DNA of 33,704 nucleotides, taken from NCBI GenBank assembly GCA_023488435.1, contig JAMDCK010000036.1:1-33704 (forward strand), written 5' to 3'. The DNA is from Actinomycetota bacterium (GTDB lineage Bacteria > Actinomycetota > Coriobacteriia > Anaerosomatales > UBA912). The position numbers were made by a program, and so were the translations under genes. The first letter of the stretch is position 1; each line of letters begins with the position of its first letter. Positions 21,756 through 25,195 of the stretch are shown in pieces. Below the pieces are notes generated by a model that was given only the letters and a program-made list of their open reading frames with translations, had not been told where the DNA came from and did no database searches.

Positions 21756-23711
21756 ATGAGTCGATATCTGCCTTACGGGTCGAGTATCGGCGAAGGAGAT
21801 GAGTTGGACCACGAGGGTAACAGTCTGGCGGAAGAGCTGCTTCGTCTTGTGGCGGTAGCGTCCACAGCAGCGCGACTCTATCCGGCGACCAGTCCGATTC
21901 CGGAAGAGTCCTTGGAGAAGCTGGTCCGGCGATCCAACGAGATCACCAACTCCCTTGGCGGGCTCAGATTCACAATCGACCCCAACGGCTTCGCATTGGG
22001 CGACAAGCCCATGTCGCCGGGACAGACCCAGATCACCTGGCTCGCAGAGACCCTCCACTCCATGCAAGGCGGCCAGCTGGTCATAGCTCCAGGAATCACC
22101 CCCGAGGAGGCCAGATCGTTCATCCACATCGTGAACTCCGATCCCGCATCCGTACGCCAGCGCAGTATCCGCTCACTGCTGACAGGGGCCGGAGTGACCC
22201 ATCTGGCAGTCATCGAGGTGTCGCTGCGCGCCTCGACAGAGGACGGGCTGCTCGGCGTGGACATCATCAATGCGCCCCTGGAAGAGATCGGCACCGAATT
22301 GACCAATGCGGTCACCACTTGGCAACAATCCGCCGAGGAGGGAGCTGGCAGCGATGACTTGTTCACGGTCATGGACCGGATGGAGGAGGCCACCCGCGGA
22401 CTGGCCGCCTCGAGGATCGTCCAAGCCCTCATGATGCTCGACGAGCCCACTAGACTGAACCTGCTTGAGATGTCGCTGAAAACCGACACGGCCGGACAGC
22501 GGATGAGTGGCATGTTCGACGTCATCTCCCGCATGAACCCATCCGCGTTGGCCCGGCTACTCAAGATGACCGCCCAGAAGATGTCCATCGAGCCGGATCG
22601 CCTCGCCCAAGCACTCGAGCTGCCAGCCTCGGTCTTCGAGTCGATCTCGCTATTGTTGTCCCTGCCAAGCCAGTCGGAGAGCGCTGAGATGGCACCCGAT
22701 GCTCCTGACGTTGAGATGATTGCCCTGGAGTTGGCGATGGATGACGCTGGAGACCTTGGTCACCAGCTATCCAAAGCTTCGCCGGTTTTCGCCGCAGGAA
22801 AGGCCCTGCACACCAACGTCACCCTCTCCGCCAAGAGGCCGGATGCGGATTCCATCAAGGCTATCGGGGAATCCTTGGTGCCTGCGATTAGCGCAGGCGC
22901 CTTCAGCGCAGTGATGGGAGCCCTGAACCGCCTTGACGAACTGCAGTCCACGCCGGCGCTTGCACTGGATATCGAGCAAGCCCGCGCTAGGATACAAGAT
23001 GTCCAGGTTCTGCTAGAGGCGTGCAGGTCGGCTTCCACCGATGCCGAAGCGGCGATGGCGGGCGACATCCTCAGGACCGCGGGCTCCACGGGTGCCGACG
23101 CCCTGCTGCTCTTCCTTGCCGAAGCCGATCAGGAACGTCGTTCCCTTTTCCGCCCAGTACTGCGGGGGATGGTCGATCAACTGCTGACCTCTGCTGGAAG
23201 AATGATCCGCACAGAGGATTCCTCGGGGGCGATAAGTATACTGAAGGCACTGGCGTTCATTGCGGACAAGAGGGCGGTCCCTGTGATCGTACAGGCATTG
23301 GAGAACCTTGACGCAGCTGTCCGCAGAAGGGCGGTGACGACACTTGCCGATATAGCCCATAGTGAGAGTCGAACTGCGCTGTCCGGCGCGGTAGCCCACT
23401 GGGATCCCGAGACACAGCGTTTTGCGATTAAGGAGATCGCAAGGGTGGGGGCGACAGAGGCCATTCCTGCATTGGTCAGAATCCTGGAAGACATTAACAT
23501 ATTCGACAGGAACCACGAGCTGAGGAAAGCGATCGTCAGGTGCCTAGGGCGCCTGGATTCGCCGATAGCCAGGCGCTCGCTTGAAAAACTGGCGAGCAGA
23601 CGATTCATCTTAGGCAGACAGGGCAAGGAGTTGCGATTCCTTGCGCGGCAAGCACTCGTGGAGTCTCCACAATCTGTACAGCCGATCGACATGGGAGCGG
23701 AAAAATCATGA
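21756..23711 (+). CDS. HEAT-repeat protein sharing its N-terminal domain with the adjacent HD-GYP protein
   Basis: A 651-residue cytoplasmic protein with no signal peptide. Residues about 25-157 form an alpha/beta domain that aligns with residues 40-172 of the next gene product: ELLRLVAVASTAARLYP aligns with ELVRALAVAHTNSQLYP, and LLTGAGVTHLAVIEV with LLESQGATGVTVAET. A helical middle region (about 180-480) follows. HEAT-type repeats lie at about 500-635 (for example AVPVIVQALENLDAAVRRRAV and EAIPALVRILED). HEAT arrays bind proteins. The ATG at 21756 lacks a clear ribosome-binding site; CATAAT (21738-21743) is a weak -10 candidate. Its stop overlaps the next start as ATGA, so the two products are made together and may form a complex. 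Function unknown. Confidence 0.85.
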   Translation: MSRYLPYGSSIGEGDELDHEGNSLAEELLRLVAVASTAARLYPATSPIPEESLEKLVRRSNEITNSLGGLRFTIDPNGFALGDKPMSPGQTQITWLAETLHSMQGGQLVIAPGITPEEARSFIHIVNSDPASVRQRSIRSLLTGAGVTHLAVIEVSLRASTEDGLLGVDIINAPLEEIGTELTNAVTTWQQSAEEGAGSDDLFTVMDRMEEATRGLAASRIVQALMMLDEPTRLNLLEMSLKTDTAGQRMSGMFDVISRMNPSALARLLKMTAQKMSIEPDRLAQALELPASVFESISLLLSLPSQSESAEMAPDAPDVEMIALELAMDDAGDLGHQLSKASPVFAAGKALHTNVTLSAKRPDADSIKAIGESLVPAISAGAFSAVMGALNRLDELQSTPALALDIEQARARIQDVQVLLEACRSASTDAEAAMAGDILRTAGSTGADALLLFLAEADQERRSLFRPVLRGMVDQLLTSAGRMIRTEDSSGAISILKALAFIADKRAVPVIVQALENLDAAVRRRAVTTLADIAHSESRTALSGAVAHWDPETQRFAIKEIARVGATEAIPALVRILEDINIFDRNHELRKAIVRCLGRLDSPIARRSLEKLASRRFILGRQGKELRFLARQALVESPQSVQPIDMGAEKS

Positions 23712-25195
23712 CAGACCAACTCGAAGGTACACCCACGGCCCCGAAGCCTGATGTCCCGTTTGAAAGCCCAGGCGGCGCTGGGGTCAGACCGGCCGTTCCT
23801 TTCGCCACCCCTGACAGGCTGGCTCGCGCAAAGGAGCTGGTTCGCGCTTTGGCGGTGGCCCACACGAACTCGCAACTCTACCCGCTGGCGCATCCGCTGC
23901 TGACCGATTCCATCGACGATCTGGTCTCCGCCGTCGGGGAGATCGGGGCACTTGGATTCGACCAGGTGACCGTGAATCTATACAAGCGGACGGTTTTCGT
24001 TGAGAACCAGGTCTTCCCCGAAGAGAGCGTGACCTACCAAAAGCTTGTCGACGACTTCCTCGTCAGGGGCATCTCGGCAATCACGTTCCTCGACGGATTC
24101 TCCAGGAAAGACGCGAAGGCGCTTGTGAATCTGCTCGCCGAGACCTCAATACCCGATGCCGAGGCCGCGCGACGGCTCCTCGAGTCACAGGGGGCCACCG
24201 GTGTGACCGTCGCCGAGACGACCACACTCGACGGAACCGAAGGAGAGTCGCAGCAGCGAGCCAACAAAGTGAAAGCCCGGGAGGTTTACGACACGGGGCT
24301 CTCTGCAATGCGCGATGTCGAGACCAGGATGAAACTCGGGAAGGCGATCGAGACAGATCTCCTGCACGATTTCATCAGCTCCATGATGGAGAGCCTGTTC
24401 AGTGACCCCGCAGCTGTCCTCGGCCTTACGGCGATCAAGAGTCACGACGACTACACTTTGAACCATGCTATAAACGTGTGTATCCTTTCGCTTTCGCTGG
24501 GGGCGTCGTTTGATCTGGACGAGGATTCACTTAGGTCTCTGGGCCTTTCGGCATTGCTCTATGATATCGGCAAGGTGCATATTCCTGAGGATATCCTGAA
24601 TAAACCCGGCCCCCTGACCAGCGACGAGTGGGCTGTCGTCAAGGATCACACCGTGGAAGGCGCCGAGCTCCTCAAGCGCATCCAGCTAATCGATCACATG
24701 CCGATGGTCGTTGCCCACGAACACCACTTCCGACATGACATGCAGGGGTACCCTGATATCGGGCCCGGGGATGGTCAGCATCTGTTCAGCAAGATAGTCG
24801 CCCTGTGTGACGCATACGACGCTATGACGACGCGCCGACCTTTCCGTCGAGAAATCCGCCCGGACAAGGCGCTGGCCGTCCTCATGCAGGGACGCGGCAA
24901 GGCTTACGACCCCTCCGTCACCAAGGCATTCATCGCACTGCTGGGCATCTATCCGATGGGTGCGATAGTCCGCCTAGACGACGACTCGCTCGCTGTGGTC
25001 TTCAGGGTGAACAACGACGACCTACTGCACCCCCGCGTGAAGATCCTGGCCGATCCCGAAGGGCGCTGGTTGCCCGAGCCATCAACCGTGGATCTGCGGG
25101 TGGTCGACCCACAGACGGGCGAGCATGTCAGGGCCATCAAGGAGTGCATACCTGCAAGCGAAGCAGGTATCGATGATGCCTGGCAGTACCTCTAG
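23708..25195 (+). CDS. Degenerate HD-GYP ('YD-GYP') domain protein with shared N-terminal domain
   Basis: A 495-residue cytoplasmic protein. Residues 1-36 are a Pro-rich flexible tail, and residues about 40-172 are the domain shared with the preceding HEAT protein. A helical linker follows, then an HD-GYP-type domain (about 240-445). HD-GYP proteins hydrolyse cyclic di-GMP with a metal centre. Here the HD pair is Y285-D286 (LLYDIGK), the HHE is H339-H340-F341, and DGxGYP reads D344-M-Q-G-Y-P349. H253, H314 and D368 are retained. Loss of the HD histidine resembles the unconventional YN-GYP protein of Bdellovibrio. It could bind c-di-GMP without cutting it, or use an altered metal site. Residues 446-495 form a C-terminal beta tail. 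Coupled by ATGA to the HEAT gene. Confidence 0.88.
   Translation: MTDQLEGTPTAPKPDVPFESPGGAGVRPAVPFATPDRLARAKELVRALAVAHTNSQLYPLAHPLLTDSIDDLVSAVGEIGALGFDQVTVNLYKRTVFVENQVFPEESVTYQKLVDDFLVRGISAITFLDGFSRKDAKALVNLLAETSIPDAEAARRLLESQGATGVTVAETTTLDGTEGESQQRANKVKAREVYDTGLSAMRDVETRMKLGKAIETDLLHDFISSMMESLFSDPAAVLGLTAIKSHDDYTLNHAINVCILSLSLGASFDLDEDSLRSLGLSALLYDIGKVHIPEDILNKPGPLTSDEWAVVKDHTVEGAELLKRIQLIDHMPMVVAHEHHFRHDMQGYPDIGPGDGQHLFSKIVALCDAYDAMTTRRPFRREIRPDKALAVLMQGRGKAYDPSVTKAFIALLGIYPMGAIVRLDDDSLAVVFRVNNDDLLHPRVKILADPEGRWLPEPSTVDLRVVDPQTGEHVRAIKECIPASEAGIDDAWQYL

Follow-up and report, generated by a model that had tools for sequence, protein, structure and literature searches.

HD-GYP proteins are usually viewed as single proteins, each with its own sensory domain, and such sensory domains typically lie N-terminal to the HD-GYP domain. 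Another route of cyclic-dinucleotide perception is seen in LapD, a degenerate c-di-GMP receptor in which a degenerate EAL domain is carried by a membrane protein. The closest described relatives of the protein discussed below are HD-GYP c-di-GMP phosphodiesterases such as PmGH (4mcw) and PA4781 (4r8z), of the Y/F (binuclear) subfamily. In PmGH, the H221A substitution essentially abolished activity, and members of the Y/F subfamily normally carry a Tyr at the position of PmGH E185 (PMC4159591). The YN-GYP protein PA2572 still regulates although no activity is detectable (PMC3411652).

The window (the whole 33,704-nucleotide stretch of DNA analysed, from an actinomycetotal genome of 1.7 Mb that is 96% complete) encodes an HD-GYP protein, here B, directly downstream of a HEAT repeat protein, here A (Table 1). 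B shares with PmGH and PA4781 the GYP, HHxxxxD and D-lysine elements and the Tyr at the PmGH E185 position, but it carries an unnamed N-terminal domain (NTD) where those proteins have a known sensory domain, it has a near-constant HEAT neighbor, and the window's copy has a Tyr for the histidine of the HD motif. This histidine is also replaced by Tyr in PA2572, which however has a receiver domain and Asn for Asp, whereas B keeps the Asp and the other ligands next to a HEAT protein. LapD resembles the role proposed here for B, as a former turnover domain senses the nucleotide and passes its state to a partner protein, but its degenerate domain is an EAL domain, it is a membrane protein and its sequence is unrelated to B. 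A more distant likeness is PP2A, where an alpha-solenoid scaffold A subunit lies beside a metallo-phosphatase; the model of A does match PP2A scaffold chains among many solenoids, but these matches are unspecific, the catalytic parts are not homologous and PP2A has no shared domain. In an open-access subset of full texts, no paper with both HD-GYP and HEAT repeats deals with such a pair, and none speaks of "YD-GYP" or of HD-GYP together with "pseudoenzyme"; absence from this subset is not proof of novelty.

Table 1. Features of the NTD-HEAT/NTD-HD-GYP pair in the window and of the two further pairs in the same genome (positions in the window unless a locus is given)
Feature	Position	Strand	Basis
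RBS-like AAGGAG, 5 nt 5' of TTG 21804	21793..21798	+	Sequence; M at that column in several orthologues
Gene A, NTD-HEAT scaffold protein	21804..23711	+	ORF; HEAT_2 E 3.6e-16; 26-orthologue alignment
NTD-A with LYP motif	21816..22262	+	NTD profile match; homology to NTD-B; AlphaFold2
All-helical solenoid of A	22278..23663	+	AlphaFold2 helices H175 to H636; Pfam HEAT_2/HEAT_PBS; PDB matches are alpha-solenoid scaffolds
Basic loop SRRFILGRQGKELR between last helices of A	23595..23636	+	Tail alignment, by eye
ATGA overlap, start of B/stop of A	23708..23711	+	Sequence; -4 is the commonest spacing (36/76 pairs)
Gene B, NTD-HD-GYP protein, 495 aa	23708..25195	+	ORF; HD_5 E 3e-23; 30-orthologue alignment
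NTD-B with LYP motif	23816..24265	+	NTD profile match; AlphaFold2, residues 35-169 mostly high pLDDT
HD-GYP domain of B, residues 243-404	24434..24919	+	Pfam HD_5; aligned to PmGH 4mcw, E 4e-28
Tyr285 codon TAT, in place of HD-motif histidine (PmGH His221)	24560..24562	+	Tyr in 45/45 window-type B proteins
Beta-rich C-terminal tail of B, residues 413-495	24944..25192	+	AlphaFold2 strands
Pair 2, NTD-HEAT and NTD-HD-GYP	Locus L067, 11495-13672 and 13669-15114	+	4-bp overlap
Pair 3, NTD-HEAT and NTD-HD-GYP	Locus L067, 4850-6841 and 3537-4853	-	4-bp overlap

Both genes were found where a sequence-only reading of this DNA had placed them, except for the start of A. The ATGA overlap between the two genes was borne out by the sequence. 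The start of A, however, is probably TTG 21804 and not ATG 21756, as an AAGGAG lies 5 nt before this TTG and several orthologues start with Met there. The protein is about 635 aa long from the TTG and 651 aa from the in-frame ATG. Minus-strand genes encoding an M78 peptidase, ROK and DUF362 proteins were found upstream of the pair in 16-18 of 45 loci; they face away from the pair and imply no pathway, and conserved neighbors were therefore set aside as a functional clue. Downstream of B, many relatives (loci L079-L116) carry a histidine-kinase-like ORF with a SHELRTPI motif on the minus strand at a distance of about 1-2.5 kb, in place of which the window has genes for PcsB-like coiled-coil and Phage_holin_4_2 proteins. 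In most Desulfuromonadales loci (L119-L142), a convergent minus-strand gene for a short HEAT protein (about 190-200 aa) lies about 0.05-0.2 kb after B.

As judged from sequence comparison and structure prediction, NTD-A and NTD-B are homologous. One-against-one phmmer searches gave an E value of about 5e-9 in both directions, and the Smith-Waterman score of 89 compares with a mean of 31 (sd 5, maximum 56) for 1000 shuffles. Aligning the two orthologue profiles with hhalign gave a probability of 96.7% and an E value of 3e-10 over 133 columns, against 1.3% with reversed columns; the shuffles and reversed profiles rule out a chance likeness. AlphaFold2 models of A and B, built separately from separate alignments and with high pLDDT over most of the NTD, agree in the succession of secondary-structure elements (H-H-E-E-E-H-E-H-H-E), which spans residues 16-154 in A and 35-169 in B. 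The proposal of the sequence-only reading that the two N-terminal regions align along their whole length was thus upheld by the pairwise searches, the profiles and the predicted structures alike, and its view of a duplicated domain placed on two different effectors is strongly supported by this homology.

The shared domain, which the sequence-only reading did not recognize as a named family, still has no name. When 24 NTDs were scanned against Pfam, no family was common to them, and the three families that each matched one NTD (E 0.025-0.053) were taken as chance. Searches against Pfam, NCBIfam, PHROGs, PADLOC and PDB sequences gave no convincing match; the best PDB profile match, to the designed protein Octarellin V.1 (E 1.7e-5 over 42 residues), was taken as chance, as were two further PDB sequence matches with E values above 1. 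Foldseek searches with the full-length models of A and B returned confident matches to HD-GYP and alpha-solenoid chains only. Across phyla, only the Tyr and Pro of LYP are near-invariant in the NTD, which would be easier to reconcile with a domain that contacts another protein than with one that forms a ligand pocket.

The adjacency of the two genes is nearly constant. An NTD-HEAT gene lies directly upstream of the NTD-HD-GYP gene in 76 of the 78 cases with at least 2.4 kb of upstream sequence, with an overlap of exactly 4 bp in 36 of the 76, in a set of loci that was collected by HD-GYP or NTD similarity and in which related genomes are over-represented. The two exceptions are L079, where the NTD-HEAT frame is split in two just upstream, and L117. 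When the window's genome and 60 others of the same order were surveyed for the window-type pair, 51 carried both genes, seven carried neither (five of these from one genus) and three carried A only; the latter three are incomplete, with A at contig ends. The co-occurrence on which the sequence-only reading depended was therefore found, and functional coupling of A and B is strongly supported by this adjacency, by the joint absence in seven same-order genomes and by the duplication of whole pairs described below. Pairs were found in other Actinomycetota, Desulfuromonadales/Geobacteraceae, Syntrophaceae, Thermodesulfobacteriota and Candidatus Stahlbacteria. The NTD profile matched in 62 of 397 Actinomycetota genomes and in 120 of 297 genomes from the phylum of a Desulfuromonadales locus, and in none of 299 genomes from the phylum of a gammaproteobacterial locus. 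Stand-alone NTD-HEAT proteins without an adjoining HD-GYP partner also exist, and one 1390-aa protein (locus L185, 2021-6193, minus strand) joins NTD-HEAT to a diguanylate cyclase domain in a single GGDEF-AAA_16-NTD-HEAT chain.

In a tree of 93 NTDs, the HEAT-type and HD-GYP-type domains fell on two sides, with 3 label changes compared with 32 in shuffles, the exceptions being a small number of HEAT proteins that stand alone or have long branches. This separation suggests that the NTD was probably duplicated once, anciently, and that the two genes were then inherited together. A tree with all HD-GYP NTDs constrained to one clade was slightly better (p-AU 0.53), making such a clade compatible with the data, not proven. 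The window's genome harbors three NTD-HEAT/NTD-HD-GYP pairs, with pairs 2 and 3 on another contig (locus L067, G000 contig C58), and the same three are carried by same-order relatives, including Anaerosomatales. As pairs 1, 2 and 3 form separate matching groups on the A and B sides of the NTD tree, duplication occurred by whole pairs. Within pair 1, the distances of NTD-A and NTD-B correlated with an r of 0.88 (partial 0.44), the highest of the domain pairs tested, all of which reached at least 0.80; the support from this is weak, as a single species history underlies all the domains. The HD-GYP protein of pair 3 in the window's genome has Asn for the D368 equivalent and GFP for GYP; two relatives keep those residues.

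Pairs 2 and 3 (L067, 3537-15114) diverge, flanking genes for CNNM/CorC, a methyltransferase, MurJ and Maf. CNNM and Maf are again found between pairs 2 and 3 in a second genome (G039); that genome and a third (G014) also have the gene that follows pair 2. Near pair 3, two relatives have a GGDEF-EAL gene (L068, 3044-4669) and a GGDEF-motif ORF (L069, 745-2499), respectively. The window's genome itself encodes six GGDEF proteins, one EAL protein and four MshEN domains, which indicates that cyclic-dinucleotide signaling is present; a search for PilZ in this genome gave no match.

The HEAT repeats of A were recognized in its last third (residues 494-613, numbered from ATG 21756), with Pfam scores above the curated cut-offs for both HEAT_2 (59.6 bits vs 27.7) and HEAT_PBS (27.4 vs 20.9). 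The best NCBIfam names, phycobilin lyase and NblB, were rejected because the score (29.8 bits) is far below the cut-off of 300, and so was a defense-system reading, for which a single weak HEAT match was the only hit. Near the end of A, a basic, partly aromatic loop is conserved among NTD-HEAT proteins from several phyla in an alignment read by eye, making it a possible docking or ligand site.

B belongs to the HD-GYP family, its HD_5 match covering positions 7-170 of 170, and it lacks an intact HD motif: it has YD where the other paralogous pairs carry HD. The YD noted in the sequence-only reading is real and invariant among orthologues. Among 99 distinct B-type proteins, every one of the 45 window-type members has Tyr at the HD-motif position, and each of the other 54 has His. 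Every other conserved ligand is present in the window's B, along with the D183/K225 pair, and an alignment of 30 B orthologues shows no variation at H253, D286, H314, H339, H340, D368, K289 and D247 or at G347, Y348 and P349. L114, which has the window-type Tyr but branches deepest, outside the main group, has also lost the lysine. The near-complete loss of activity in PmGH H221A and the lack of detectable activity in PA2572 make ordinary phosphodiesterase activity in the window's B doubtful. A simple dead enzyme, on the other hand, would not usually retain all the remaining ligands. The earlier description of a "pseudo-signalling enzyme" hence suits the window's paralogue but not the system in general, because the full set of ligands of Y/F-subfamily HD-GYP proteins is intact in most of the other pairs.

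We give an even chance to a model where the operon encodes a two-subunit cyclic-dinucleotide complex, with the window's paralogue serving as a receptor or regulator; here we infer the complex, its ligand, its output and the loss of activity. The NTDs derived from one ancient duplication would hold the alpha-solenoid scaffold A and the HD-GYP subunit B together, B would bind c-di-GMP or a related cyclic dinucleotide, and paralogues with an intact HD motif would probably hydrolyze it. The scaffold could relay the state of B to a target or position the enzyme beside the target. The invariant His-to-Tyr change would disable the usual metal center of the window's paralogue, and this copy would then most likely act as a receptor or regulator, not as an ordinary phosphodiesterase. 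A complex is supported by the NTD homology, the adjacency, the joint presence and absence, the whole-pair duplication and the NTD distance correlation, although the last is also expected from shared ancestry and the stand-alone NTD-HEAT proteins argue against a complex. A role in cyclic-dinucleotide signaling is supported by the GGDEF fusion of one NTD-HEAT protein and by the GGDEF, EAL and MshEN domains of the window's genome.

The partners need not touch each other. Each NTD could instead dock independently on a third component that both recognize, such as a pole, membrane or pilus machine, while the operon only equalizes their dose, a model that we find unlikely but still credible. Such docking is favored by the occurrence of the NTD in stand-alone HEAT proteins and in the GGDEF-AAA-NTD-HEAT protein and by the four MshEN domains of the genome, but the NTD-A and NTD-B lineages are distinct and have stayed paired across phyla, which better fits two specialized halves of one contact. 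The NTD could also be a small-molecule sensory domain, with A and B as parallel outputs of one signal. This is decidedly improbable as, beyond the LYP Tyr and Pro, no conserved set of polar pocket residues is seen, even if sensory domains typically sit, as the NTD does, ahead of an HD-GYP domain.

Against a receptor role for the window's B stand the retention of all other conserved ligands and of the D183/K225 pair and the low confidence of the AlphaFold2 model in the HD-GYP core. The tyrosinate of purple acid phosphatases serves as a metal ligand, and the Tyr of B could likewise replace His in a working enzyme with an altered metal choice, substrate or rate. The occurrence of Tyr alone at this position, as well as the invariance of the eight ligand and lysine-pair residues listed above, which decay should have eroded more, would favor such an enzyme. 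It nevertheless seems improbable to us, as PmGH H221A has essentially no activity left, the natural YN-GYP protein PA2572 shows none and the deepest Tyr branch, L114, is without the lysine too. The two-subunit complex with a receptor or regulator in the window's pair remains our preferred model.

Taken more broadly, we tentatively propose, at somewhat less than even confidence, a widespread system built on an ancient heterodimerization domain that brings together a HEAT scaffold and an HD-GYP cyclic-dinucleotide enzyme in lineages that include Actinomycetota and Desulfuromonadales, with one of three Anaerosomatales complexes having become, through a fixed His-to-Tyr change, either a dedicated cyclic-dinucleotide receptor or a tyrosine-liganded variant enzyme. 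If true, a conserved unit of two genes whose scaffold and HD-GYP products share a duplicated domain would explain how many entries from anaerobic and environmental bacteria annotated as "HEAT repeat protein" and "HD domain protein" belong together. A genome with three paralogous pairs, of which one has a fixed YD, would then represent a natural experiment on the passage of an HD-GYP enzyme to a receptor.
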